64,000 nt of DNA from Mesoterricola sediminis (GTDB taxonomy: Bacteria; Acidobacteriota; Holophagae; Holophagales; Holophagaceae), in assembly GCF_030295425.1 (NCBI RefSeq), contig NZ_AP027081.1:2525001-2589000 (forward strand), written 5' to 3'. The translations under genes were made by a program, and so were the position numbers. Below the pieces are notes generated by a model. The model was not told the origin of the DNA, did no database searches, and saw only the letters and a program-made list of their open reading frames with translations. Below are positions 3,940 to 45,820 of the stretch, one piece after another; the stretch's first letter is position 1, and each line of letters starts with the position of its first letter.

Positions 3940-4242
3940 TCAGGACCCCAGCGGGAGGGGGGTGTATTCCTTGAGGAGCCCGTCCGCCACGGCGTCGGGG
4001 TCCGGATGGTAGTCCTCGGCGTCCAGACTCGCCCGGAGCGCCTCCACCCGGTCCAGCCGCACGTCGGGAATCCCGGTGATGCGGGCCCGGGCCACGGCCA
4101 CGAAGTGGGCGCCGCTGGAGACGCTGAGGGCGTCCGAGACGGGACCCGCCGGAGCGGTGGAAGCCGGCTGAGAGGGAGCCGAACTGCCAGCGCTCACCTT
4201 CGCGCCCGACCCCGTTCCCCCCGACTTGATTGAAACCCTCAT
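3940..4242 (-). CDS. flgM: Anti-sigma-28 factor FlgM
   Basis: FlgM holds the flagellar sigma factor FliA inactive in the cytoplasm until the hook is complete and FlgM is exported. The C-terminal half carries the family signature: IPDVRLDRVEALRASLDAED followed by YHPDPDAVADGLLKEY. The N-terminal half is Ser/Gly/Pro-rich and disordered, as usual for a secreted FlgM. About 100 residues is the usual length. I prefer the ATG at 4242 to the GTG two codons upstream, because the GAGG lies seven bases before that ATG. A good sigma-28 promoter precedes the gene, giving the usual feedback loop. Confidence 0.9.
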   Translation of the reverse strand: MRVSIKSGGTGSGAKVSAGSSAPSQPASTAPAGPVSDALSVSSGAHFVAVARARITGIPDVRLDRVEALRASLDAEDYHPDPDAVADGLLKEYTPLPLGS

Positions 4243-4263
4243 TTCCACACCTCGACACTCATG

Positions 4264-4290
4264 GTATCGGCAGGTGGGGATTTACCATTA
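4264..4290 (-). promoter_or_regulatory. Sigma-28 (FliA-type) promoter ahead of flgM
   Basis: Read on the minus strand this is TAAT, 15 bases, then GCCGATAC. The enteric sigma-28 consensus is TAAA-N15-GCCGATAA, so it matches 3 of 4 and 7 of 8 positions with exact spacing. The -35 element overlaps the flgJ stop codon, and the -10 element lies 22 bases before the flgM start. This would make flgM, the unknown gene, the flgN-like gene, flgK and flgL a late unit within the larger flgH-to-flgL operon. Confidence 0.75.
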
Positions 4291-11092: not shown

Positions 11093-11193
11093 GGTGTTCT
11101 CCGTCACCTTTATACCATTCAACCCCGGCCCGGGGCCGGGGGTCTCTTGAATGGCCCCGTTCAGGGACCTTGCCTTTTCCAAGGGGCCCCCCG

Positions 11194-11817
11194 ATGATGA
11201 CAACAGCCATGGTTCATGACGAGAGGCCGACGTCCGCTGCCCTCCAGGACTCCCCCTACCACGGGCCGGAGGTCCAGGCGTGGGTGGTGGCCGCCCAGGC
11301 CGGAGACCAGGTCGCCTTCGCCAACCTGGTGGAGCGCTTTCAGCGGGACGTCTACGGGAAGGCCTTTTCCATCCTCAAGAACCACCTGGACGCCGACGAC
11401 GTGGTCCAGGAGACCTTCCTGCGGGTGTACCGGGCCCTGCCCGGGTTCCGCTTCGAGTCCTCCTTCCGGACCTGGCTGATCACCATCACCACCCGCCAGG
11501 CCCTCAACTTCCTGGGCCGGGTCCGCTCCTCCCACGAGAGCCTGGATCCCACCCCGGAGGGGCAGGAACACCCGGCCCTCCGGGTGGAGGACAACCAGAT
11601 GTCCGCCTTCCTGGACCAGGAGTCCCGCCGGCTCCTCCGGGAGGCCCTGCCCCGCCTGCCCCAGCGGCAGCGGGAGGCCCTTATGCTCAAGATAGAGAAT
11701 GATTGGAAATATGAGCAGATTGCCGCCCAGATGAACATCTCGGTCGGCAGCGTGAAGGCCCACATCTTCCATGCGATCCAGAACCTGACCCAGCACATCC
11801 AAGGAGGGCGTCCATGA
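11194..11817 (+). CDS. ECF-type RNA polymerase sigma factor
   Basis: Sigma-70 family protein of about 207 residues with only regions 2 and 4, the extracytoplasmic function (RpoE-like) layout. Region 2: DVYGKAFSILKNHLDADDVV then QETFLRVYRALPGFRFESSF and RTWLITITTRQALNFL. Region 4: LPRLPQRQREALMLKIENDW then KYEQIAAQMNISVGSVKAHI, the helix-turn-helix that reads the -35 box. The start is the ATG at 11194, preceded by AAGGGG; longer starts are possible. Its stop overlaps the next gene by four bases (ATGA). That gene encodes a likely anti-sigma factor, which indicates signal control at the membrane. Confidence 0.92.
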   Translation: MMTTAMVHDERPTSAALQDSPYHGPEVQAWVVAAQAGDQVAFANLVERFQRDVYGKAFSILKNHLDADDVVQETFLRVYRALPGFRFESSFRTWLITITTRQALNFLGRVRSSHESLDPTPEGQEHPALRVEDNQMSAFLDQESRRLLREALPRLPQRQREALMLKIENDWKYEQIAAQMNISVGSVKAHIFHAIQNLTQHIQGGRP

Positions 11818-32264: not shown

Positions 32265-33020
32265 ATGGAATCCAAAGGCCGCCTTCTCCTTGCCGACGAT
32301 GAGGATGTGTTCCTCCAGGCCATGGCCCAGCTCCTCGAGATGCAGGGCTTCACCGTCGACCCGGCCGCCTCGGTCCCGGAGGCCCGCGCCCTCCTGGAGG
32401 CCAACAGCTACGACATCCTGGTCTCCGACATCGTCATGCCCGGCGGCAAGGTGCTGGACCTGGTGCGGAGCATCCCGGAGCGCAACGCCGGCCTCCCCGT
32501 CGTGCTCATGACGGGCCACCCCTCCGTGGACACCGCCCTCGAGGCCATGGGCAACGCGGTCCTGGCCTACCTGGTGAAGCCGTTCACCCTGGAGGAGCTG
32601 ATGGGGCCCCTCCAGACCGGCCTCCGCCTGCGCAAGGTGCAGTCCCTCGCCCTGGAGTCGTCGCGCCGCCTCCAGACCTGGGCGGACGAGATGCGGGCGG
32701 TGGAGGCCGATATCCGGTCGGCCCCGGCCAGCATGGGCGTCATGCCCCTGTCCGGCCTGGTCGGGCTGGTCCTGGGCAACCTCGCCGCCTCGACCCTGGA
32801 GCTCAAGCAGCTCCTGGACGTGGCCCTCCAGACCTCCGCCTCCCAGGGGGTGTGCGGCATCCGGGACTGCCCCCGGCTCGGCCTGCTCCAGGAGACCCTG
32901 CGGGAGGGGGTGGACGTGCTGGAGCGGACCAAGGGTTCCTTCAAGTCCAAGGAACTCGGCGATCTCCGCCGCCGGTTCTCGTCCGCCCTGGAAGGAACCG
33001 GGCCAACGACTGGCGCTTGA
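32265..33020 (+). CDS. Response regulator with a C-terminal helical domain of unknown type
   Basis: The first 120 residues are a complete receiver: acidic pocket LLLADDEDVF, phosphoacceptor Asp 55 in LVSDIVMPG, Thr 83 region LMTGHPSV and Lys 105 in YLVKPFTLEE. The remaining 130 residues (RRLQTWADEMRAVEADIRSA ... TSASQGVCGIRDCPRLGLLQ ...) look helical with no HTH, GGDEF, HD-GYP or AAA+ motifs; I do not recognise them. The ATG at 32265 has GGGAG four bases upstream; a start eight codons earlier has none. It lies 158 bases before the large hybrid kinase on the same strand and is a candidate phosphate acceptor for it. Confidence 0.88.
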   Translation: MESKGRLLLADDEDVFLQAMAQLLEMQGFTVDPAASVPEARALLEANSYDILVSDIVMPGGKVLDLVRSIPERNAGLPVVLMTGHPSVDTALEAMGNAVLAYLVKPFTLEELMGPLQTGLRLRKVQSLALESSRRLQTWADEMRAVEADIRSAPASMGVMPLSGLVGLVLGNLAASTLELKQLLDVALQTSASQGVCGIRDCPRLGLLQETLREGVDVLERTKGSFKSKELGDLRRRFSSALEGTGPTTGA

Positions 33021-33178
33021 CAATTTTAACCCCCTCCGCATACTGGCCTAGCTTTTCCAAGTCCCTCAGGGACGACCAGTCTTGGCGGGCAGGATCCGGT
33101 CCTGCAAGTTGAAGGCGAAATCCTGGAGCACCCGCTGCCAGCCCGAATTCGCAACGCGCTTCCGCGGCAGGCCCTTCC

Positions 33179-36100
33179 ATGGCATTCCGGCTTCTCATCG
33201 TCGAGCAGAGCGAACTCCAGGTCCAGCGCCTGGCCCAGGTCCTCCGGGAGGCGGGCCTGGCCTTCACCTGGGAGGCCGCGGCCACCGCGGCCGAGGTCCA
33301 GGGGGCCCTGGACCGGGGCGGGCAGGACCTCCTCCTCTGCGCCCACGCCCTGCCCGGCCTCAGCTACGCCTGGGTGCTGGCCCAGGCCCAGGAGCGCGGC
33401 CTGACCGTGCCCTGCATCGTCATCGGCCCCACCTCGGACGAGGACATGGTGGCCCGGGCGGTCCGGCTGGGCGCACGGGATTTCGTGTCCCTCGGCCGCC
33501 TCAACCGCCTGCCCCAGGCCGTGCGCCGGGAGCTGGAGCGCGTGGACCGCGGCCCCGTCGCGCCCACCGCCGCGGAGGCGCTGCCCCCGGCCGGGGACGA
33601 GGCCCTGCTGGACCACATGGTGGAGGCCTACGGCCTCCACGAGGCCATCCGGGACGCCTCGGGCCGGGGCGTCGACTTCCGCTGGCTGCGGGTGAACAAG
33701 GCCTATGAGCGCCTCACGGGGCTCCGGTCGGAGGAGATGATCGGCCGCACCGCCCGGGAGGTGGTGCCCGACCTGGACCCGGTCTGGATCGAGCGGTTCT
33801 GCCGGGTGGGCCTGGCCGGGGAACCCGCGGCCCTGGACAACTACATCAGCCTCCGGGGGCGGGTGTTCTCCGGGCTCGCCTTCTGCCCCGCGCCCGGCCA
33901 GTTCGCCCTCCTGTTCAACGACGTCACCGAAAGCCGGGCCCTGGCGACCTCCCAGGGGAGCCTGGCCGCGGCGGTGGACCAGGCCGCGGAAGGCATCATG
34001 ACCGCCAACCTCGGGGGCCTCATCACGTACGCCAACCCAGCCATGGAAGCCCTGGCGGAGGATCCGCGCACCCGGTCCGTGGGGCGCCCCGCGAGCGAGG
34101 TCCTGCCCGGGATTCCCACGGAATGCTGGACGGGGGGCCTCCCCTGGCAGGGCCGGGTGACCCGGACGGTGGCGGGCGGCGTCCAGGTCCTCGACTGCAC
34201 CCTGGCCCCGGTCCGGGATCCGGCGGGCCGGCCCACCTCCACCGTCGTGGTGGCGCGGGACGTGACCCTGGAGGCCGATACCGAGCGCAGCCTCCGGCAG
34301 ATGGAGAAGATGAAGGCCCTGGGCGAGGTCGCCGGGGGGATCTCCCACGACTTCAACAACCTCCTGACCGCCATCCTCAGCGCCACGGAGCTCATCGAGT
34401 GGAACCTGGCGGAGGGCAGCCCCATCCGCCTCAAGCTCCAGGTGATCTACCAGGCCGTGATGCGCGCCCGGGAGCTGAACAAGCAGATCCTCGCCTTCAG
34501 CCGCTCCCAGGACGAGAAGTTCATCCCCTTCGACCTGAGCGTCGTGGTCAAGGAGGCCGTCCACCTGATCAAGTCCACCTTCCCGCCCTCGGTGCAGGTC
34601 CGCGCCAGCCACGAATCGGGCGTCTGGATCAACGGGAACGGCGCCCAGATCCACCAGGTGGTGATGAACATCGCCATCAACGCCCTCCAGGCCATGCTCC
34701 CCGCGGGCGGCGTCCTGGAGATCGGCCTGGAGGGGGGTCCGGACGAGGCGAGGCTCACCTTCCGGGACACCGGCTGCGGCATGGACGCGGCGACCCTGGA
34801 CCGGGTCTTCGAGCCGTTCTTCACCACCAAGGAGCGCGCCGCCGGCAAGGGCCTCGGCCTTTCCGTGGTCCACGGCATCGTCACGGCCCACGGGGGGACC
34901 GTCACCGCCCGGAGCGAGCCGGGCAAGGGCAGCGTCTTCACCGTCACCATCCCCGCCGCCATCCGCCCGGGGGCCGCGCAGGAGGAGACGCCGGACGAGG
35001 TCCCCACCGGTTCGGAGCGGGTCCTGTTCGTGGACGACGAGGAGGTCCTGGCCGCCCTCGGGAAGCAGGGGCTCCAGCTCCTCGGGTACCGGGTCACGGC
35101 CCGGTCCGACGCCCACGAGGCCCTCGAGGAGATCCGGCACCATGCCCAGGACTTCGACATCCTCATCACGGACCTCTCCATGCCGGGCATGTCGGGGGTG
35201 GAACTGACCCAGCAGGTGCGCCGGATCCGGCCCGACCTGCCCGCCATCCTCATCACCGGGGCCTTCCAGGACCCCCTGCCCCTGGAGGGAATGTCCACCC
35301 CCTTCGCCGAAGTCCTCCTGAAGCCCTCCACCATCCTCGACATGGCCCACGCCGTGCGCCGGGTGATGCGGGCCGCGCCCGCCAAGGCCGCGCCGGACCC
35401 CGCCCTGGAGGCCGCCGCGCGCCACGAGGGCGACTCGGCCATCCTGCTGGCCGAGGACAGCCAGTCCACCCGGTCCCTGCTCCGCAGCTGGCTGGTCAAG
35501 GCCGGCTACAAGGTGGACGAGGCCCGCGACGGCCAGGAGGGGTGGGAGCTCTTCGAGCGCAATCCGGGCCGCTACGCCCTGGTGGTCACCGACATCGTCA
35601 TGCCCCGCCTGGATGGGCTCGGCCTGGCCCGCCGGATCCGGACCCTGGATCCCTCCATCCCCATGGTCATGCTCTCCTCCTCGGAAAGCACCGAATCGGT
35701 GAAGGAGGCCCTCCACCTCCAGGTGAGCGAGTTCCTCACGAAGCCCTTCGAATCGCGCCTCCTGGTCTCCACCGTGGAGCGCCTCTGCGCGGACCAGGCC
35801 ACGCGCCTGAAGAACCTGCGGAGCCACGAGACGGCCCAGGCCGTGCGCATGGCCCAGCGCGCCATGGAGGCCCTCCCCGAGCGGGACATGCCCATCTATT
35901 CCATCTCCGAGCCGCTCACGGACGCCGGCGGGGACGTGTTCCGGGCCTTCCGGCGCGACGACGGCTCCATCTTCTTCTGCCTGGCGGACGTGGCGGGCCA
36001 CTCCGTGATCAGCTCGTACGCCGTCGCCGCCTACCTGGGCATGCTCGCCAACTTCATCACCGGCGACCTGGACCTCCGCGGCCTGGCCTTCCGCCTCAAC

Positions 36101-36928
36101 AAGGCCATCCAGGCCGGCCCCTTTTCCGAGGTCCCCATCTGCTGCCTATTCGGGCACTGGGCCCCCGGCACGGGCCGCGTCCACCTGCTCAACGCCGGCA
36201 TCCCCCACGCCCTCTGGCACCGGGGCGGCCTCTCGGGCACCCGCGCCGTGCCCCTGAACGGCACCCCCCTCGGCATCCTGGACGAACCCCTCATCGAAGA
36301 GAAGGTCCTCCTGCTGTCCCCCGGGGACCGCCTGCTGCTGGGCAGCGACGGGTTCTTCGACGCCCTCGGCCCCGGCGGCCAGCCCTTCTCGGACCTGGCG
36401 GGGGCCATCTGGGAGAACCTGCGCTCCGCCGACATCTTCCAGGCCATCAACCTGGTGTCGGAGGCGGCCCGGACCCATGCCGGCGGCACCTTCGGGGACG
36501 ATCTCCTCGTGGTGGCCCTGGAGCAGCCCCCCCTCGACCTCGGCCCGGGCGCCTTCGCCCAGTGCCTCCCCTCCGACGCGGGCGCCATCGACCGGGCCTG
36601 CGACGCCCTCGCTCAGTGGCTCGGCAACCCGGATGCCTCCGCCTCCCAGCACTTCGACACCCTCCTCGCCGTCCGGGAGGCCCTGTCCAACGCCGTCCTC
36701 CACGGCAACGGGGCGGACCCCGCGGCCCTCTTCGGGCTGTGGGCCACCCGCCTGCCCTCCGGCGCCGTCCAGATCGGCGTGGTGGACGAAGGCCCCGGCT
36801 TCGACCTGCAGGCCCACCAGCCCCCCGACACGGCCCAGTCCGAGCGGGGCCGGGGCATCCCCCTGATCCGGCACTTCGCGGGCCAGGTGGCCATGACCGG
36901 CGGCGAGCTCAGCATGATTTTCAAATAA
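33179..36928 (+). CDS. Hybrid sensor kinase fused to PP2C phosphatase and RsbW-like ATPase
   Basis: A 1249-residue cytoplasmic protein with no membrane helix. Order seen: receiver-like domain without phospho-Asp (1-120; LLLCAHALPG at the site); PAS (about 140-255); PAS (about 260-370); HisKA with His 390 in ISHDFNN; HATPase with N box VVMNIAINALQAM and G boxes DTGCGMD, GKGLGLSVVHGI; receiver with Asp 665 (ILITDLSMPG); receiver with Asp 805 (LVVTDIVMPR, Lys 855); RsbU/SpoIIE PP2C (LTDAGGDVF, CLADVAGHS, LLGSDGFFDA, FGDDLLVV); and a C-terminal RsbW-type ATPase (REALSNAVLHGNG, VVDEGPGFD, GRGIPLIRH). A STAS protein gene follows. The layout joins two-component signalling to partner switching in one chain. 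Confidence 0.92.
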   Translation: MAFRLLIVEQSELQVQRLAQVLREAGLAFTWEAAATAAEVQGALDRGGQDLLLCAHALPGLSYAWVLAQAQERGLTVPCIVIGPTSDEDMVARAVRLGARDFVSLGRLNRLPQAVRRELERVDRGPVAPTAAEALPPAGDEALLDHMVEAYGLHEAIRDASGRGVDFRWLRVNKAYERLTGLRSEEMIGRTAREVVPDLDPVWIERFCRVGLAGEPAALDNYISLRGRVFSGLAFCPAPGQFALLFNDVTESRALATSQGSLAAAVDQAAEGIMTANLGGLITYANPAMEALAEDPRTRSVGRPASEVLPGIPTECWTGGLPWQGRVTRTVAGGVQVLDCTLAPVRDPAGRPTSTVVVARDVTLEADTERSLRQMEKMKALGEVAGGISHDFNNLLTAILSATELIEWNLAEGSPIRLKLQVIYQAVMRARELNKQILAFSRSQDEKFIPFDLSVVVKEAVHLIKSTFPPSVQVRASHESGVWINGNGAQIHQVVMNIAINALQAMLPAGGVLEIGLEGGPDEARLTFRDTGCGMDAATLDRVFEPFFTTKERAAGKGLGLSVVHGIVTAHGGTVTARSEPGKGSVFTVTIPAAIRPGAAQEETPDEVPTGSERVLFVDDEEVLAALGKQGLQLLGYRVTARSDAHEALEEIRHHAQDFDILITDLSMPGMSGVELTQQVRRIRPDLPAILITGAFQDPLPLEGMSTPFAEVLLKPSTILDMAHAVRRVMRAAPAKAAPDPALEAAARHEGDSAILLAEDSQSTRSLLRSWLVKAGYKVDEARDGQEGWELFERNPGRYALVVTDIVMPRLDGLGLARRIRTLDPSIPMVMLSSSESTESVKEALHLQVSEFLTKPFESRLLVSTVERLCADQATRLKNLRSHETAQAVRMAQRAMEALPERDMPIYSISEPLTDAGGDVFRAFRRDDGSIFFCLADVAGHSVISSYAVAAYLGMLANFITGDLDLRGLAFRLNKAIQAGPFSEVPICCLFGHWAPGTGRVHLLNAGIPHALWHRGGLSGTRAVPLNGTPLGILDEPLIEEKVLLLSPGDRLLLGSDGFFDALGPGGQPFSDLAGAIWENLRSADIFQAINLVSEAARTHAGGTFGDDLLVVALEQPPLDLGPGAFAQCLPSDAGAIDRACDALAQWLGNPDASASQHFDTLLAVREALSNAVLHGNGADPAALFGLWATRLPSGAVQIGVVDEGPGFDLQAHQPPDTAQSERGRGIPLIRHFAGQVAMTGGELSMIFK

Positions 36929-36997
36929 CTTCCCTGGCTGGTTGACATGAATCCGACCTCCCCCTCGTCCTCACCGCTCCCTGATCCGGAGGAACCG

Positions 36998-37312
36998 ATG
37001 GCTTCGAACAATCCCGCTCCCGCCGCCCCGGGCACCATCCGCATCGCCGCGGGCGGCAACCTGGTGGCCAGCACCGTCGAGGATCGCCGGCGGGCCGCGA
37101 TGGAGGCCCTCGCGACCCCCTGCGCCGAGGCCGTCCTGGACCTCGCCGGGGCCGACGTGGTGGACTCCCTGGGCATCACCCTCATCCTCGGCCTGTTCAA
37201 GACCTGCCAGCAGCGCAAGATCGCCTTCCGGGTCGAGGGGGCCAATCCCGACCTGATGCGGGTGTTCAAGCTCTTCAGCCTGCCCAAGCTGTTCCCCATC
37301 CAGGAGCGCTGA
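36998..37312 (+). CDS. STAS-domain anti-sigma-factor-antagonist-like protein
   Basis: A 104-residue STAS protein (RsbV/SpoIIAA type). The conserved Ser of the phosphorylation loop is visible at about residue 57 in DLAGADVVDSLGITLILGLF. In partner switching an RsbW kinase phosphorylates this Ser and a PP2C phosphatase removes the phosphate; both activities are present as domains of the protein encoded just upstream. I place the start at 36998, where GGAGG lies five bases before the ATG; an upstream ATG at 36947 lacks a ribosome site. cheA begins two bases after the stop. Confidence 0.9.
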   Translation: MASNNPAPAAPGTIRIAAGGNLVASTVEDRRRAAMEALATPCAEAVLDLAGADVVDSLGITLILGLFKTCQQRKIAFRVEGANPDLMRVFKLFSLPKLFPIQER

Positions 37313-37313
37313 C

Positions 37314-40013
37314 ATGGTCAGCCTGGCCGACGAAAGCATCATCGCCGAATTCGTGGCCGAGAGCCGGGAGCACCTCAGCGTGGTGGAGCCCGACCTCCTG
37401 GCCATGGAGGACCTGGGCGCGAAGGTGAGCCAGGAGGTGATCAACCGGGTGTTCCGGGCGATCCACAGCCTCAAGGGCGGGGCCGGGTTCTTCTCCTTCG
37501 AGTCCCTCAAGAAGCTCAGCCACGCCATGGAGGGCGTCCTGATGCTGGTGCGGGACGGGAAGCTCCAGCCCACCCCGGACCTCATGGACTGCCTCTTCAC
37601 CGGGGTGGACAGGCTCCGGGCCATGCTGGACGACATCCACGCCAGCGACGACGTCCCCTTCGCCAAGGAGCTGGCGGCCCTGGAGGCCATCCTGGGCGGC
37701 CAGGGCGTGAACCTCGGCGAGACCGTGAAGGGCCGGGAGAAGGGCACCAAGCGCGACTTCGACCTGGACGCGGAGAGCGTGCGCAGCGCCCTGAAACGGG
37801 GCATGAACCTCTTCCGGGCGGTGGCCTACCTGCACCGCGACATCCGCGACCAGGGCCTGGCCCCCCTGGCCTTCCTCAACAACGCGCTGTCCGTCGGCAC
37901 CTGCCTCGACGCCTTCATCGACATCGAGGCCATCGCCGACCTGGAGCACTGCCTGGAGCAGGACCTGCCCGTCACCCTCCTCTTCGCGACGGTGCTGGAG
38001 CCCGACCTGGCCGCCATGGCCCTCAAGCTCCCCACGGACCAGGTGAAGGTCCTGGAGGTGAAGGCCCTCAAGGAGAGCCTCAAGGCCCGGCCCAAGGCCG
38101 AGAAGGCCCCGGCCCCCGCGCCGCCGCCGGCCCCCGCCGCCCCGGAGGCGCCGGCCGAGGCCCTGGTCGAGGCCGAGGCGGAGGCCCGGACCCCGCGCGA
38201 GGGCGCCAAGGACACGGCCAACGAGACCCTCCGGGTCCGGGTGGACCTCCTCACCAACCTGATGAACCTCGCCGGGGAACTCGTCCTCGGCCGGAACCAG
38301 CTGGTCCGGGCCATCAACGACTACCGCCACGAGATCCCGGGCCTGGGGGCCATCCTCCAGAACGTGAACCAGGTGACCACCGAGATGCAGGAGGGGATCA
38401 TGCAGACCCGCATGCAGCCCATCGGCACGGTGTTCAACCGGTTCCCCCGCATCATCCGGGACATGAGCCGGCAGCTCTCCAAGCAGATCGAGGTCCAGAT
38501 CGAGGGGGCCGAGGTCGAGCTCGACAAGTCCATCGTCGAGATGCTGGTCGATCCGCTGACCCACATCATCCGCAACTGCGCCGACCACGCCCTCGAGACC
38601 CCCGCCGACCGCAAGCGGGCCGGCAAGAACCCCACCGGGGTCATCCACCTCCACGCCTACCACGAGGGCGGCCAGATCAACATCGCCGTCCACGATGACG
38701 GCCGCGGCATCGACGCCCGGAAGGTGCTCGACAAGGCCCTCGCCAAGGGCCTCGTCAGCAAGGCCCAGGCCGCCGAGATGACCGACCGGGAGATCGTCCA
38801 CCTCATCTTCGCGCCGGGCTTCAGCACCGCCGAGCAGGTCTCGGACATCTCGGGCCGCGGCGTGGGCATGGACGTCGTCCGCACCAACGTGGAGAAGCTG
38901 GGCGGCCACGTGGAGGTGGAGACCGAGGTGGGCATGGGCACGACGGTGCGCCTGCGCCTGCCCCTGACCCTGGCCATCATCCCCTCCATGATCGTGGGGG
39001 TGGCCGAGCACCGGTTCGCCATCCCCCAGGTGAACGTGGTGGAGTTCGTGTGGGTGAAGGCCAGCGAGGTCGCCCAGCGGATCGAGCAGGTCCAGGGCGC
39101 CCTGGTGCTCCGCCTGCGGGACCAGCTCCTGCCCCTGGTGCGCCTCGCGGACATCCTGGACATCCCCCGGACCTACCAGGACCCCGGCACCGGGGAGCCC
39201 CTGCCCGACCGCCGCAACGCCATCGCCGACCGGCGGGAGGCGGAGGAGGTTCCCGCCGGCCGCGGCGAGGACCGCCGCAAGGACTGGCGGAGCGACTACA
39301 ACATCATCGTCCTCCGGGTCGGCAAGAACCAGTACGGGATCATCGTGGACGAGCTCTTCGACATCGAGGAGATCGTCGTCAAGCCCCTCTCCAGCTTCAT
39401 CCAGAACACCAAGTGCTTCTCCGGGGCGACGATCCTCGGCGACGGCCGCGTGATCATGATCCTGGACGCCGGCGGCGTCGCCGCGGCCTCCCAGCTCCAC
39501 TTCACGGACCTCCAGGCCGAGGAGCTCCGGCGCGCGGAGGAGGAGCGCCGCCACGCCGCCCTCAAGGCCAGCCGCCGGCGCTCCGTCATCCTCTTCGAGG
39601 GGGCCCGCGGCGAACGCTTCGCCGTGCCCCAGGACCACGTCCTCCGCCTCGAGCGCATCCTCCTGGGGCGCATCGAGCACATCGGGGACCGGGAGTACAT
39701 CGAGTACCGGGGCGAGGGCCTGCCCCTCGTGCGCCTGGACCAGCACCTGGACGTGCGGCCCCTGGACGCCGCCCTCCAGGAACTCTTCCTCGTCATTCCC
39801 AAGGTCCCGGGCCAGGATTCGACGGCCCGGCCGCCGGCGGGGATCCTCATCAGCGAGATCCTGGACGCCCTGGACGTGGAGGTGGAGCTCAAGCCCGTCG
39901 AGTTCAAGGGCCCCGGCCTCCTCGGATCGGCCGTGGTCCAGGACCACCTGACCCTCTTCCTCGATCCCATCGACCTCCTGCGCTCGGCGGGCCTGGCCGG
40001 AGGTGCCGCATGA
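37314..40013 (+). CDS. cheA: Chemotaxis-type histidine kinase CheA
   Basis: An 899-residue CheA. Hpt domain with His 51 (FRAIHSLKGGAGFFSF); a middle region about 150-250 that may bind regulators; Ala/Pro linker; dimerisation helices (VDLLTNLMNLAGELVLGRNQ); HATPase with N box IIRNCADHALETPADR and G boxes VHDDGRGID, SGRGVGMDVV. The C-terminus holds two CheW-like domains instead of one (about 620-740, split by a charged insert, and about 750-895), longer than the roughly 650-residue enteric form. AGGAG lies eight bases before the ATG. Its stop overlaps the cheW start (ATGA). It should autophosphorylate in receptor arrays and pass phosphate to the CheY and CheB encoded downstream. Confidence 0.94.
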   Translation: MVSLADESIIAEFVAESREHLSVVEPDLLAMEDLGAKVSQEVINRVFRAIHSLKGGAGFFSFESLKKLSHAMEGVLMLVRDGKLQPTPDLMDCLFTGVDRLRAMLDDIHASDDVPFAKELAALEAILGGQGVNLGETVKGREKGTKRDFDLDAESVRSALKRGMNLFRAVAYLHRDIRDQGLAPLAFLNNALSVGTCLDAFIDIEAIADLEHCLEQDLPVTLLFATVLEPDLAAMALKLPTDQVKVLEVKALKESLKARPKAEKAPAPAPPPAPAAPEAPAEALVEAEAEARTPREGAKDTANETLRVRVDLLTNLMNLAGELVLGRNQLVRAINDYRHEIPGLGAILQNVNQVTTEMQEGIMQTRMQPIGTVFNRFPRIIRDMSRQLSKQIEVQIEGAEVELDKSIVEMLVDPLTHIIRNCADHALETPADRKRAGKNPTGVIHLHAYHEGGQINIAVHDDGRGIDARKVLDKALAKGLVSKAQAAEMTDREIVHLIFAPGFSTAEQVSDISGRGVGMDVVRTNVEKLGGHVEVETEVGMGTTVRLRLPLTLAIIPSMIVGVAEHRFAIPQVNVVEFVWVKASEVAQRIEQVQGALVLRLRDQLLPLVRLADILDIPRTYQDPGTGEPLPDRRNAIADRREAEEVPAGRGEDRRKDWRSDYNIIVLRVGKNQYGIIVDELFDIEEIVVKPLSSFIQNTKCFSGATILGDGRVIMILDAGGVAAASQLHFTDLQAEELRRAEEERRHAALKASRRRSVILFEGARGERFAVPQDHVLRLERILLGRIEHIGDREYIEYRGEGLPLVRLDQHLDVRPLDAALQELFLVIPKVPGQDSTARPPAGILISEILDALDVEVELKPVEFKGPGLLGSAVVQDHLTLFLDPIDLLRSAGLAGGAA

Positions 40014-40462
40014 CCCAGTTCGCGACCTTCAACGTGGGCGACCACCTCTTCGGCCTGGACATCCTCCGGGTCCGGGAGATCATCCGGGTCTCCAGCATCA
40101 CCCCCGTGCCCCGGTCCGACGCCCACCTGCGGGGCCTCATCAACCTCCGGGGGCAGATCGTCACCATCCTCGACCTGGCGGTGCGCCTCGGCCAGCAGGC
40201 CAGGCCCGTCAAGGACTCCAGCCACATCGTCATCCTGAAGCACGGCGCCGGCGCCCAGGACAAGGGCAACGGCGGGGGCCAGGACATCCTGGGCCTCCTC
40301 GTGGACGCCATCGGCGACGTCGTGGAGGCCGACGTGGCCCTGGCCGAGGCGCCCCCCGCCAACCTGTCCGGCGCCGAGGAGCGGTTCCTGTCCGGGGTCC
40401 TGAAGACCGACGCCGGCCTCCTCGTCCTCCTCAACCTCCAGGAACTCATGACCACCGGCTGA
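40010..40462 (+). CDS. cheW: Chemotaxis coupling protein CheW
   Basis: A 150-residue CheW that couples receptors to CheA. Typical blocks: FATFNVGDHLFGLDILRVRE, IIRVSSITPVPRSDAHLRGL and INLRGQIVTILDLAVRLG, ending ETDAGLLVLLNLQEL-like (KTDAGLLVLLNLQELM). A short Gly-rich loop (AGAQDKGNGGGQ) is inserted between strands. Coupled by ATGA overlap to cheA and followed by the receptor gene after 57 bases. Confidence 0.94.
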   Translation: MTQFATFNVGDHLFGLDILRVREIIRVSSITPVPRSDAHLRGLINLRGQIVTILDLAVRLGQQARPVKDSSHIVILKHGAGAQDKGNGGGQDILGLLVDAIGDVVEADVALAEAPPANLSGAEERFLSGVLKTDAGLLVLLNLQELMTTG

Positions 40463-40519: not shown

Positions 40520-43366
40520 ATGCAATTCCTCGACAACATCAAGATGGGGCCGAAACTCATCGCCTCCTTCGTGCTCACCGCCCTGGTCACGATCGTCGTG
40601 GGCACCTTCGGCGCCCTCAAGCTCCGCTCCGCCGACGAGGACAACCAGCGGATGCACGACAAGATGCTCACCCCCATCGCCGACATGGGCGACGTCGTCC
40701 AGTACAACCAGCGCCTCCGGGTGAACATGCGCGACGCCTACATCTCCGGGGACATGGAGCGCTTCCAGCGGCGCTACGACGAGTTGGCGGACCTCTCGCG
40801 CAAGGCCGAGGCGAAGGTCAAGGCCTCCTTCCTCACCGACGCGGGCAGGGCCGCCTGGGCCCGGTACGAGGACGCCAAGGCGGCCAGCCTCGAATCCAAC
40901 CGCCAGGTGTTCTCGCTCATCCGTTCCGGCAAGAAGGCCCAGGCCGAGGACCTCCTCTACGGCGACAACTTCGGCAAGGTCCAGGCGCTGAACAAGTGCG
41001 AAGCCGAAGTGCTGGGCACCAAGATCGACCTGGCGAAGAAGACCACGGACGAGGTCACCGCCAACGCCAACGCCACCATCCACACCATGCAGCTCCTGAT
41101 GCTCCTGGGGGCCGCCCTCGGCATCGCCCTCGGCGTGGTCATCGCCCGCTCCATCACCCAGCCCATGGCCAAGGGCGTGGAGATGATGAAGGAGATGGCC
41201 AAGGGCCACCTCTCCATCCGCCTCAAGATGGACCGCAAGGACGAGATCGGCCAGCTGGCCGAGGCCATGGACGCCTTCGCCGCCGATCTCCAGGGCATGG
41301 TCGTGGGTCTCCAGCAGATCGCCAAGGGCGACCTGGCCCGCGAATGGACCGCCTCCGACGCCCAGGACGAGATCGCCCCGGCCCTCAAGCTGGTCCGCGC
41401 GAACCTCCTGGCCCTCGTCGAGGACGCCGCGATGCTCAGCAAGGCGGCCGTCGACGGCAAGCTGGCCACCCGCGCCGACGTCAGCCGCCACCACGGCGAG
41501 TTCCGCCGCATCGTCCAGGGCGTCAACGACACCCTGGACGCGGTCATCGGCCCCCTCAACGTCGCGGCCGGCTATGTGGACCGCATCAGCCGCGGCGACA
41601 TCCCCCCGGCGATCACCGACAGCTACAACGGCGACTTCAACACCATCAAGGTCAACCTCAACAAGTGCGTCGCGGCCCTGGACGGCCTGATCCGCGAGAT
41701 GAACCACATGTCGGCCCAGCACGACGCCGGCGACATCGATGTGAAGATGGACGCCGCCCAGTTCGAGGGCGCCTACCGCCAGATGGCCAACGGCTTGAAC
41801 GACATGGTCTTCGGCCACATCGCGGTGAAGAAGAAGGCCATGGCCTGCGTGTCCGAGTTCGGCAAGGGCAACTTCGAAGCGCCCCTGGAGCGCTTCCCCG
41901 GCAAGAAGGTGTTCATCAACGAGACCATCGAGGAAGTGCGCGGCCACCTGAAGGCCCTCATCGCCGACGCCTCCATGCTCAGCCAGGCCGCCGCCGACGG
42001 CAAGCTGGCCACCCGCGCCGACGCCACCCGCCACCAGGGCGACTTCCGCAAGATCGTCCAGGGGGTCAACGACACCCTCGACGGCGTCATCAAGCCCATC
42101 AACGAGGTCCAGCGGGTCATGGGCGCCATGGAGCAGGGCGACCTCACCGCCCGCATCACCAACGAGTACCGGGGCGACCTGCAGGCCCTCCGGAACGCCG
42201 TGAACAACACGGCCGCCAAGCTGGCCCAGACCCTCACGGACATCAGCGGCGCCAGCAACACCCTGGCCAGCTCCGCCGACGAGCTGACCGCGACCTCCGC
42301 GACCATGAGCGGCAGCGCGGAACAGATGACTCAGCAGGCCAACACGGCCGCCGCGGGCACCGAACAGGCCTCGGCCAACGTGAAGAACATGGCCGCCGGG
42401 GTGGAGGAGATGAGCGCCAACGCCAACACCGTGGCCTCTGCCTCCGAGGAGGTGAGCGCCAACCTCCAGACCGTGGGCGCCGCCGTGGAGCAGATGTCCT
42501 CGAACATGAAGACCATCGCCGCCTCCACGGAGCAGATGACCTCCTCCGTCAACACGGTGGCCACCGCCATCGAGGAGATGAGCGTCAGCCTCAACGAGGT
42601 CTCCAAGAACTCGGGCCAGGCCGCCACCGTGGCCGGCAAGGCCGCCAAGAGCGCCACCAACACCGCCGAGACCGTGAACAAGCTGGGCCGTTCGGCCCAG
42701 GAGATCGGCAAGGTGGTGGACATGATCAAGGGCATCGCGGCCCAGACCAACCTCCTCGCCCTCAACGCCACCATCGAGGCGGCGAGCGCGGGCGAGGCGG
42801 GCAAGGGCTTCGCGGTGGTGGCCAACGAGGTGAAGGAACTGGCCAAGCAGACGGCCGGAGCCACCGAGGAGATCCGCGCCCAGGTGGAGGACATGCAGGG
42901 GAACACCCAGCAGGCCATCAAGGCCATCGACGAGATCGTCCAGGTGATCGGCGAGATCAACGCCATCTCGGCCAACATCGCGGCCTCGGTGGAAGAACAG
43001 ACCGCCACCACGAACGAGATCTCCAAGAACGTGGGCTACGCGGCCCGGGGCGCCCAGGATGTGGCCCGGAACGTCCAGCAGGCGGCCATCGGCACCAACG
43101 AGGTCTCCCGCAACGTCCAGGAAGCCGTGAAGGGGGTGACGGACATCAGCCGCAACATCAACCAGCTGGCCCTCGGGGCCACCGACGTGGCCAAGAACGC
43201 CGGGGAGGCCTCCAAGGGCATGAACGACGTCAGCCGCAACGTGGCCCTGGTGAGCGGCGCCGCCCGGGAGACCACCCGCGGCGCGGGCGACACCAACAAC
43301 GCCGCCAAGGAGCTCGCCCGTCTGGCCGAAAAGCTCCAGCAGAGCGTGGCCCGGTTCAAGCTGTAG
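40520..43366 (+). CDS. Methyl-accepting chemotaxis protein with duplicated HAMP-like modules
   Basis: A 948-residue receptor. TM1 (about 13-33, [20 protein letters not shown]), a periplasmic four-helix-type sensor domain (about 34-188), TM2 (about 190-208), then HAMP. The linker contains duplicated modules: [20 protein letters not shown] ... [17 protein letters not shown] recurs as [20 protein letters not shown] ... [18 protein letters not shown] long signalling coiled coil follows with the conserved tip [20 protein letters not shown] (about 735-755). No C-terminal CheR-binding pentapeptide is seen (ends VARFKL). A strong terminator follows, so it closes the cheA-cheW-mcp transcript. Confidence 0.94.
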
Positions 43367-43458: not shown

Positions 43459-44583
43459 ATGATCCCCAAGCTCCGCATCCTCATCGTGGACGACACCGCG
43501 GTCTACCGGCGCATCCTCACGGAGGTGGTGGAGTCCGTCCAGCCCGATGCGGAGGTCTCGGCCTGTCCCAGCGGGCGCCTGGCCCTGGCCCGCCTGGACC
43601 AGGCGCCCTCGGACCTCGTGCTCCTGGACGCGGTGATGCCGGACCTGAGCGGCCTGGAGACCCTCCGCCTCCTCCGGGCCCGGCACCCGGACACCAGCGT
43701 CATCATGATCAGCGGCACCACGTCCGCCGCCGCGTCCAGCACCCTGGACGCCCTGGCCCTGGGCGCCCTCGAGTTCGTGCGCAAGCCCGAGGGCGCCGAC
43801 GCCGAGGCCAGCCGCGCGGAGCTCCGGGACGTGCTGCGCCCCCTGCTGCGCCACGTCCAGACGCGCCTCAACCTGCGGAGCCCCGTCACCCTGCCGCCCA
43901 TCCGCCGCGACCCGGAGCCGGCCCCAGCGGCGGCCCCCTCCGCCCCGGCCCCGCCCCAGCCCTCCCGCCGGCAGGGGCCCCGCCCCAGCCGCTTCGACGT
44001 GGTGGCCATCGGCGTCTCGACGGGGGGCCCCAACGCCCTGGCGGAGGTCATTCCCAACCTGCCCGCGGACCTGGGCGTCCCGGTCCTCGTAGTCCAGCAC
44101 ATGCCGCCCTTCTTCACGGCGAGCCTGGCGGAGCACCTGGACAAGACCTCGCGCCTCCGGGTGGCCGAGGCCGTGGAGGGCGAGCCCGTCCTGCCCAACC
44201 GGGTCTACATCGCCCCGGGGGGCCGCCACATGACCATCCGCCGCATGGGGGGGCCCGAGGGGCCGCCCATCATCGGCCTCAACGACAACCCGCCCGAGAA
44301 CAGCTGCCGCCCCTCGGTGGACGTGCTCTTCCGCTCCGTGGCGGCCCACTTCGGCGGCACCATCCTGGGGGTCGTCATGACCGGCATGGGCTCCGACGGC
44401 TGCGAGGGGGTGCGCGCCATGAAGCGCCAGGGCTGCCACGTCCTCACCCAGACGGAGGACACCTGCGTCGTCTACGGCATGCCCATGGCCGTGGACGAGG
44501 CCGGCCTCTCCGACGAGCAGGTCCCCCTGCCCCGCCTCGCGCCCCGCATCGCCTACCTTGTCGGCTCCGGGAGGTCCGCATGA
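43459..44583 (+). CDS. cheB: Chemotaxis protein-glutamate methylesterase CheB
   Basis: CheB removes methyl groups from receptor glutamates and deamidates glutamines once phosphorylated. The 374 residues have a receiver (LIVDDTAVYRR; Asp 57 in VLLDAVMPDLSG), a Pro/Ala linker, and a methylesterase domain with catalytic Ser in AIGVSTGGPNAL, His in VVQHMPPFFTASLA and Asp in MTGMGSDGCEGV. The ending TCVVYGMPMAVDEAG is typical. It starts a new transcript after the terminator; TTATAG at 43448-43453, six bases before the ATG, and the weak ribosome site suggest a very short leader. Confidence 0.95.
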   Translation: MIPKLRILIVDDTAVYRRILTEVVESVQPDAEVSACPSGRLALARLDQAPSDLVLLDAVMPDLSGLETLRLLRARHPDTSVIMISGTTSAAASSTLDALALGALEFVRKPEGADAEASRAELRDVLRPLLRHVQTRLNLRSPVTLPPIRRDPEPAPAAAPSAPAPPQPSRRQGPRPSRFDVVAIGVSTGGPNALAEVIPNLPADLGVPVLVVQHMPPFFTASLAEHLDKTSRLRVAEAVEGEPVLPNRVYIAPGGRHMTIRRMGGPEGPPIIGLNDNPPENSCRPSVDVLFRSVAAHFGGTILGVVMTGMGSDGCEGVRAMKRQGCHVLTQTEDTCVVYGMPMAVDEAGLSDEQVPLPRLAPRIAYLVGSGRSA

Positions 44584-45446
44584 GTCCCGAATCCATCACA
44601 GCCGCCGAGTTCCGCCTCATCCGCGACTACATCCAGGAGCACTGCGGCATCTGCCTGGGCGACGAGAAGGCCTACCTGATCGAGACGCGCCTGGCCGGGC
44701 TCATGGTCCAGCACGGCTGCACCGATTTCGGCAGCTTCTACCGCCTGGCCAAGGGCGGCGACTCCCCCCAGCTCCGGGAGCAGGTCATCGACGCCATGAC
44801 CACGAACGAGACCCTCTGGTTCCGGGACCAGCACCCCTTCTCCATCCTGGAGGAGCAGCTCCTGCCGCCCCTGGCCGAGGAGATCCTCAAGGGGAACCGG
44901 TTCCGGGTCCGGATCTGGTCCGCGGCCTGCTCGACGGGCCAGGAGCCCTACAGCATCGCCATGACCATCCAGGAGTTCTGCAAGCGGACCCCGGGACTCC
45001 AGCCGGGCCACTTCGAGATCATCGCCTCCGACATCTCCCCCTCCGCCCTCTTCCTGGCGAAGGCCGGGCGCTACGACGAGAACGCCATCCGCCGCGGCCT
45101 GCCCGACGACATGAAACGGAAGTACTTCCACCCGGACGGCCAGGTCTGGAAGGTCAACGACGACGTCAAGGCCATGATCTCCTTCCGGAAGTTCAACCTG
45201 CAGGATTCCATGGAGCCCCTGGGGCGCATGGACATCGTCTTCTGCCGCTACGTCACCATCTACTTCGCCGACGACTTCAAGCGCCGGATCTTCCAGGGCC
45301 TCGCACGGCTCCTGGGCCCGGGCGGGCACCTCCTGGTGAGCGCCGTCGAATCGCTGCGCGGCATCGCCGACGAATTCCTGCCCCTCACCCACGGCGGAGG
45401 CCTCTACTACCGCTGCGAGCCCCAGAATCCGGGAGGCGCCCCATGA
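44580..45446 (+). CDS. cheR: Chemotaxis protein methyltransferase CheR
   Basis: CheR methylates receptor glutamates with S-adenosylmethionine. The 288 residues show the N-terminal helical domain (AEFRLIRDYIQEHCGICLGD), the TNETLWFRDQHPF motif, the SAM-binding IWSAACSTGQEPYSIAMTIQ, the block ASDISPSALFLAKAGRYDEN, and IVFCRYVTIYFADDFKRRIF near the end. The ATG overlaps the cheB stop, and its own stop overlaps cheY. Confidence 0.95.
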   Translation: MSPESITAAEFRLIRDYIQEHCGICLGDEKAYLIETRLAGLMVQHGCTDFGSFYRLAKGGDSPQLREQVIDAMTTNETLWFRDQHPFSILEEQLLPPLAEEILKGNRFRVRIWSAACSTGQEPYSIAMTIQEFCKRTPGLQPGHFEIIASDISPSALFLAKAGRYDENAIRRGLPDDMKRKYFHPDGQVWKVNDDVKAMISFRKFNLQDSMEPLGRMDIVFCRYVTIYFADDFKRRIFQGLARLLGPGGHLLVSAVESLRGIADEFLPLTHGGGLYYRCEPQNPGGAP

Positions 45447-45820
45447 AGATCCTTTCCGTGGACGATTCCGCGACCATGCGCAAGATCATCGGCCGCGTCG
45501 TCGGCATGCTGGGCTACGACCTCCTGGAGGCCGGGACCGGCGAGGATGGCATCGCCGTCCTGGAGCAGAACGTGGCGGACGTGGCCCTGGTGATCATGGA
45601 CATCAACATGCCCGGCATGGACGGCATCAGCGCCCTGGAGGCCATCAAGGCCAATGAACGCACCCGCAACGTCCCCGTGATGATGGTGACCACCGACAGC
45701 GACCGGCAGCGCATCATCCAGGCCGTGCGGGCCGGCGCGGCCAACTACGTCACCAAGCCCTTCACCCACGACGACCTCGCCGCCAAGATCGCCGACACCC
45801 TGGGGGCCTCCGAGTTCTGA
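45443..45820 (+). CDS. cheY: CheY-like single-domain response regulator
   Basis: A 125-residue stand-alone receiver: acidic pair in LSVDDSATMRKIIGRV, phosphoacceptor Asp 53 in VIMDINMPGMDG, Thr in MMVTTDSDRQR, and Lys 105 in YVTKPFTHDDL. No output domain. Last gene of the cheBRY unit, coupled by ATGA to cheR; most likely the diffusible output of this array, to the flagellar motor or to pili. A hairpin follows. Confidence 0.93.
   Translation: MKILSVDDSATMRKIIGRVVGMLGYDLLEAGTGEDGIAVLEQNVADVALVIMDINMPGMDGISALEAIKANERTRNVPVMMVTTDSDRQRIIQAVRAGAANYVTKPFTHDDLAAKIADTLGASEF

Follow-up and report, generated by a model that had tools for sequence, protein, structure and literature searches.

A single gene in a 64,000 bp stretch of the Mesoterricola sediminis genome (accession: NZ_AP027081.1, 2,525,001 bp–2,589,000 bp; hereafter the window, whose numbering is used throughout) encodes a hybrid histidine kinase fused to a PP2C-type phosphatase and an RsbW-type serine kinase, which we have designated HHK. 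The genes that follow encode a STAS domain protein, CheA and the remainder of a chemosensory operon. It is likely that these proteins form a partner switch gated by two-component signalling, in which the second intact receiver of HHK (REC2), the phosphatase domain and the RsbW domain set the phosphorylation of Ser74 (S74) of the STAS protein, with REC2 being fed by the fused kinase and CheA as a likely second donor. Judged by its sequence, the switch appears to be real and is probably functional.

Domain organisation of HHK and its putative STAS partner

Pfam analysis of the HHK open reading frame (ORF) recovered three receiver stretches, two PAS domains, HisKA (residues 381–445), HATPase_c (488–594), SpoIIE/PP2C and HATPase_c_2, all above cut-off and with whole-protein E-values of 4e-55 to 3e-7; the N-terminal receiver and REC1 were each confirmed when run alone. 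A preliminary description of this DNA had proposed a 1249-residue chain with these domains, and had set the detection of PP2C and RsbW domains by profile search as a check beforehand; both were found, and the chain corresponds to the ORF at 33,179 bp–36,928 bp. Motif alignment placed H390, D665 and D805 at the residues given there, so that HHK, with H390, HATPase_c and C-terminal receivers carrying D665 and D805, qualifies as a hybrid histidine kinase. The N-terminal receiver is a pseudo-receiver, as had been said, because its Asp and Lys are both missing. The GGD motif of the PP2C domain, with D919, begins N-terminal to the Pfam match (927–1115). The putative opposing serine kinase and phosphatase domains share one chain, as first described, and this arrangement is conserved in 14 genomes. 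No obvious membrane segment was seen in HHK, the best 19-residue hydropathy being 1.48 compared to 2.35 for the methyl-accepting chemoreceptor (MCP) of the operon.

The expectation that the next gene encodes a STAS protein with the conserved serine was also borne out. This protein matched Pfam STAS and STAS_2, scoring under the cut-off of TIGR00377, and comparison with solved structures aligned its S74 with Ser58 of SpoIIAA. Similarly, E1167 and N1171 of the RsbW domain aligned with Glu46 and Asn50 of SpoIIAB, which we take to be the catalytic Glu and Asn of that kinase. The STAS gene lies 18 bases downstream of HHK. A single base, rather than the two previously counted, separates its stop codon from cheA, which starts at 37,314 bp, and several genes of the operon overlap.

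As the HHK and STAS genes are in frame, the PP2C-RsbW-STAS region was folded as one read-through chain with the TAA read as a residue. The predicted fold had a pLDDT of 83 and a pTM of 0.72. Its best structural match was the RsbU-RsbW part of Rv1364c (3ke6; Z 24.7, 310 residues), for which the root-mean-square deviation (rmsd) was high (16.5) because the two domains are placed differently. The next matches were the single PP2C domains of SiaA, SpoIIE and Pseudomonas aeruginosa RssB (rmsd ~2.5–2.9); solved RsbV and SpoIIAA were not among the best 50 matches of the fold search, which PP2C domains filled.

Conservation of the module and co-inheritance with CheA

Alignment of HHK with 11 relatives (45–83% identity) showed the PP2C metal-ligand motifs GGD, AD.AGH, DG.F and DDLL to be invariant. 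The RsbW motifs REAL.NA..HG (N box), D.G.GF (G1) and SERGRGI (G2) were present in these relatives, with the N and G2 boxes invariant and G1 reading DAG or DGG in two of them; the Asp of G1 was retained in all. S74 of the STAS protein, within LVASTVE, was likewise invariant across 11 relatives. Motif comparison of the receivers revealed the acidic pair, D805, Thr/Ser and Lys of REC2 to be intact in 13/13 sequences, whereas the REC1 Asp was kept in the window's genus only and was replaced elsewhere by Glu, Ser, Thr or Ala; the copies of one genus (g9) were not confidently alignable at REC1. The statement that HHK has two intact receivers therefore applies here, but not to REC1 in other genera. 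The related suggestion, that receiver phosphorylation sets the state of the STAS protein, may hold for REC2, which alone is conserved as a working receiver, but probably not for REC1. A His-Asp-His-Asp relay via REC1 was rejected as a general mechanism, the REC1 Asp being lost outside the window's genus. In that genus it is possible, by analogy, that REC1 acts like the inhibitory receiver carried by RsbK (PMC4574943).

Four of the five genera (g1, g4, g5 and g7) have an intact histidine kinase. In the g9 loci L039 and L040 its H and N boxes are lost, and Pfam found neither HisKA nor the kinase HATPase in L039, yet REC2-PP2C-RsbW, the STAS protein and CheA are retained. As REC2 is intact throughout and the kinase is lost in g9, the conserved working unit is REC2-PP2C-RsbW plus STAS, together with CheA. 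The N-terminal sensor kinase would then be a replaceable input, and to judge from g9 HHK may do without it. The g9 genome G013 additionally has, at another locus (L142), a sensor kinase gene followed by a row (3422 bp–7092 bp, minus strand) consisting of a regulator of the RR266 type described below, an RNA leader, a free-standing PAS histidine kinase with 39% identity to the fused kinase, and an MCP. This row is possibly a split version of the input half of the fusion.

The preliminary description had called for a survey of homologous neighbourhoods, and this found STAS and cheA beside HHK, the order HHK-STAS-cheA-cheW-MCP being kept across five genera wherever contigs were long enough. The PP2C-RsbW profile and the CheA orthologue matched the identical 14 of 77 Holophagaceae genomes, from five genera, and neither was found in the other 63 (hypergeometric 1.2e-15, a value that ignores the relatedness of the genomes). 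Within each of g1, g4 and g7, HHK and CheA were present or absent together. Among 396 genomes of Acidobacteriota, HHK was confined to Holophagaceae. Exact peptide patterns searched against 84,980 species genomes gave nine Holophagaceae-type loci and two weak partial matches in Eremiobacterota, a count that remote fusions could escape because the patterns come from close relatives. HHK had no tblastn match in plasmids, and spread by plasmids was rejected.

Two further arrangements were seen in other families of the class. At L096, in a distant family, a STAS gene directly precedes cheA without the fusion. In another family, L101–L103 encode proteins of 1558–1592 amino acids with HisKA/HATPase_c, REC and PP2C but no RsbW domain, L101 also carrying a Reg_prop propeller and a Y_Y_Y domain; the joining of kinase and phosphatase is therefore not unique to HHK.

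Proposed switch and its output

In the proposed switch, the RsbW domain would phosphorylate S74 of the STAS protein and the PP2C domain would strip this phosphate. Phosphorylation of REC2 at D805 may shift the balance towards dephosphorylation, by analogy with HsbR, which leads to dephosphorylation of HsbA when phosphorylated and to phosphorylation of HsbA when unphosphorylated (PMC6482189). The signal would reach the PP2C dimer probably through a helical linker, the route by which related PPM phosphatases are controlled (PMC12143880). The fused PAS-histidine kinase would pass cytoplasmic signals to REC2 in cis, while CheA of the same operon, which is an equally plausible donor because the module persists in g9 although the fused kinase there is dead, would be the second source of phosphate. 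Signals from the chemosensory array and from the PAS sensor would thereby meet at one STAS switch. Whichever form of the STAS protein is free of the RsbW domain would act on a further partner, which is most likely a sigma/anti-sigma protein as for CrsA/HsbA and less likely CheA.

The following points weigh against this proposal. The evidence for transfer from CheA to REC2 consists of linkage and the g9 case, the sequence is compatible with phosphorylated REC2 favouring either the phosphatase or the kinase, and the genome has 8 other SpoIIE and 9 other STAS matches that might cross-talk with the switch. A second REC-PP2C-RsbW protein is encoded in the genome at G000:C1 861,774 bp–862,808 bp (L075, 3724 bp–6576 bp, minus strand). 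It is up to 951 amino acids long, with ~390 N-terminal residues that had no Pfam match, and no TIGR00377 STAS match was found nearby.

A transcriptional output of the switch is a credible, if tentative, reading. The STAS protein would then pair with the RsbW domain itself or with a distinct anti-sigma factor (FlgM, or whichever protein holds L065), giving a sigma switch between motile and sessile states under chemosensory control. The genome encodes FlgM, FliA (L066) and an RpoS-like group 2 sigma factor (L065), and in P. aeruginosa HsbA binds FlgM and HsbR binds RpoS (PMC6482189). Against this, the conserved operon contains no sigma or anti-sigma gene, the flg genes are ~28 kb away, and L065 scores under the RpoS cut-offs. 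FlgM is encoded within a flagellar cluster of fliC-like, flgK, flgI and flgH genes (779 bp–6407 bp, minus strand). The earlier remark that no sigma gene is adjacent is correct for the genes beside HHK, but flgM and an ECF sigma gene are in the same window, and FliA and L065 are encoded elsewhere. Gene distance does not exclude a sigma output because CrsR acts on RpoS although none of the ten che1 genes encodes a sigma factor. The proposal that the STAS protein acts on the array, pili or flagella instead, made from the lack of an adjacent sigma gene, needs changing on this point.

It is rather unlikely that the STAS protein, in one of its phosphorylation states, binds CheA or the array and tunes CheA activity or phosphate flow rather than transcription. 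The single base between STAS and cheA, the inheritance of HHK and CheA as a block, and the STAS-cheA pair of L096 are consistent with such an output, as is the binding of CheA by CheS of Sinorhizobium meliloti, which consists of STAS only and is encoded in a che operon (PMC12654446). However, CheS is not described in PMC12654446 as being under an RsbW/PP2C pair, and RpoS is the target of CrsR/CrsA in che1, which among characterised systems is the closest (PMC9855816). A sigma-type output was placed slightly ahead of CheA because CrsR/CrsA, itself in a che operon, acts in this way. A closed loop, in which the PAS-histidine kinase in cis and CheA in trans both write REC2 and the STAS protein acts back on CheA or the array, is less likely still; it would join a His-Asp phosphorelay to serine partner switching inside one chemosensory unit. 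From the neighbouring genes, an output on pili is possible: beside the chemosensory operon (21,796 bp–29,727 bp, minus strand) lie a large ORF resembling PilY1 and several others whose N-termini look like those of prepilins, all recognised from sequence only.

We also doubt that the fused histidine kinase is the sole input and CheA a passenger of the operon. Fusion in cis usually denotes private transfer, and the kinase is intact in 4/5 genera; yet the g9 copies lost its H and N boxes while REC2-PP2C-RsbW, the STAS protein and CheA persisted, and the fusion is present in every genome with this CheA. The g9 case only weakens this reading because the free-standing histidine kinase of g9 could replace CheA as donor. 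Finally, it is highly improbable that the fusion arose from faulty annotation or assembly, or that the gene is decaying. The receivers and kinase do decay in some genera, and a draft assembly carries the L034 copy with a frameshift, but the catalytic motifs are invariant and the fusion forms one open frame in the closed genome of the window, in the single-contig genomes G001, G004 and G013 and in several drafts, across several genera.

Upstream region and other features of the window

The gene upstream of HHK encodes a response regulator of the family we have designated RR266 (Table 1). RR266 orthologues are found upstream of HHK in L031–L036, and are its neighbour in the window's genus and g7. 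The C-terminal domain had no Pfam match and contains the motifs CxIxxCPR and TKxAFKSKELGxLR. RR266-type genes repeatedly adjoin the RNA leader together with a PAS histidine kinase or HHK.

Just upstream of HHK there is a sigma-70-type promoter; four relatives (L031–L034) share its TTGAC[A/T] and a -10-like hexamer. It is followed by a structured RNA leader in the 5′ untranslated region, comprising a GCCUUGACGGGCAGG..CCUGCAAGUCGAAGGCGCAA hairpin and, 5′ of this, a second, variable hairpin that appears in single-sequence folds. In the conserved hairpin 97% of cells were paired and both partners had changed in 5/13 pairs, far in excess of slid controls, although these counts lean towards the model because the alignment of relatives was fitted to it. 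The leader precedes HHK in g1, g4 and g7, and a second copy precedes STAS in four g1 genomes. Other Holophagaceae copies precede genes for an MCP, a PAS histidine kinase, an RR266-type regulator and a helix-turn-helix protein. Outside the window, copies of the leader lie at L031 10,645 bp–10,715 bp and 6701 bp–6771 bp (minus strand), at L115 1501 bp–1570 bp (minus strand), and in L127, L129 and L130. The leader had no match in Rfam and is a candidate new cis-regulatory RNA, supported by covariation.

Elsewhere in the window, IS5-type and IS4-type transposase genes lie side by side in a lower-GC stretch (12,918 bp–15,505 bp, plus strand), and a 1156 amino acid RHS-repeat protein is encoded in another lower-GC region (55,864 bp–59,334 bp, minus strand).

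Table 1. Positions of HHK, its domains and associated features in the window
Feature	Position (bp)	Strand	Basis or remark
flgM	3943–4281	-	between flgI and flgK orthologues
ECF sigma	11170–11817	+	
RR266-family response regulator, REC + conserved C-terminal domain	32265–33020	+	Pfam Response_reg
Sigma-70-type promoter TTGACA-N16-CATACT	33017–33044	+	just upstream of HHK gene
Structured RNA leader, two hairpins, ~71 nt, in HHK 5′ untranslated region	33054–33125	+	folds, covariation
HHK, 1249 amino acids	33179–36928	+	ORF, Pfam
Pseudo-receiver, residues 6–104, without phosphoacceptor Asp	33194–33490	+	Pfam Response_reg (E 1.7e-9), motif alignment
Two PAS domains, residues ~166–364	33674–34270	+	Pfam
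HisKA (H390) + HATPase_c, residues 381–594	34319–34960	+	Pfam, motif alignment
REC1, residues 615–726, D665, intact in window's genus only	35021–35356	+	Pfam, motif alignment
REC2, residues 755–866, D805, intact in 13/13 sequences compared	35441–35776	+	Pfam, motif alignment
PP2C/SpoIIE-type phosphatase, residues 927–1115	35957–36523	+	Pfam, motif alignment
RsbW-type GHKL Ser kinase, residues 1131–1243; E1167, N1171, DEGPGF, ERGRGIP	36569–36907	+	Pfam, alignment
STAS (RsbV/SpoIIAA-like) protein, 121 amino acids, S74	36947–37312	+	Pfam, alignment
cheA, Hpt H51, two CheW domains, no REC	37314–40013	+	Pfam, motif check
cheW	40013–40462	+	Pfam
Poly-HAMP MCP	40520–43366	+	Pfam
cheB	43459–44583	+	Pfam
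cheR	44580–45446	+	Pfam
cheY	45440–45820	+	Pfam

Comparison with known systems

A literature search, mostly of papers outside subscription, found no description of a histidine kinase-REC-PP2C-RsbW fusion. HsbR/HsbA, CrsR/CrsA and SypE/SypA already provide examples of a single protein that joins a receiver to PP2C and RsbW and has a STAS partner, and CrsR/CrsA is also in the che1 operon. What had been called unusual, the full fusion beside cheA, is therefore so only in that it adds a histidine kinase, PAS domains and two more receivers. The new element is a histidine kinase in the same chain; REC2 can probably receive from both this kinase and CheA. Histidine kinase, receiver, serine phosphatase and serine kinase, which are elsewhere on several proteins, are here joined in one chain that is co-inherited with CheA. 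It thereby becomes possible to test directly whether partner switches are driven by chemosensory arrays, as has so far only been suggested for Shewanella Che1, and there is one purifiable protein for studying how receiver phosphorylation picks between opposing serine kinase and phosphatase domains.

The REC-PP2C-RsbW (HATPase_c_2) order of the CrsR/HsbR type was found in HHK at residues 755–866, 927–1115 and 1131–1243, together with a phosphorylatable REC next to PP2C, PP2C and GHKL motifs and a nearby STAS protein with the conserved serine. CrsR/CrsA of Shewanella oneidensis has the same domain order and a STAS partner (PMC6482189), and is likewise in a chemosensory operon with cheA1, cheW1, cheB, cheR, cheY and MCPs (PMC9855816); as described there CrsR lacks a histidine kinase, PAS and a second receiver, is from a different phylum and has RpoS as its output. 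HsbR/HsbA of the P. aeruginosa HptB pathway shares the REC-PP2C-RsbW order and the STAS serine target and is fed by hybrid histidine kinases (PMC6482189), but these are separate proteins signalling via HptB, whereas the Mesoterricola kinase is in cis and the only Hpt of the operon is CheA's own. In SypE/SypA of Vibrio fischeri a single chain likewise carries opposing serine kinase and phosphatase domains and one receiver, and its substrate is a STAS protein (PMC12826045). The SypE order, with RsbW N-terminal, REC central and PP2C C-terminal, is not that of HHK, and the described system has no histidine kinase and no cheA.

In Bacillus cereus, the hybrid kinase RsbK drives the REC-PP2C protein RsbY on the STAS protein RsbV, opposed by RsbW (PMC4574943); this differs in being four separate proteins with a sigma-B output. 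STAS genes in che clusters are known from published gene orders (PMC9239204). One such protein is S. meliloti CheS, likened to the present STAS protein, which is also STAS-only and encoded next to cheA, by description rather than by sequence; CheS is described as binding CheA, with no RsbW/PP2C regulator described for it in PMC12654446. Rv1364c of Mycobacterium tuberculosis, the closest solved structure (3ke6), likewise carries PP2C and RsbW in tandem on a single polypeptide, but has a PAS input and a fused RsbV, and no receiver or histidine kinase; in Mesoterricola STAS is instead a separate gene, and REC2 rather than PAS precedes PP2C.

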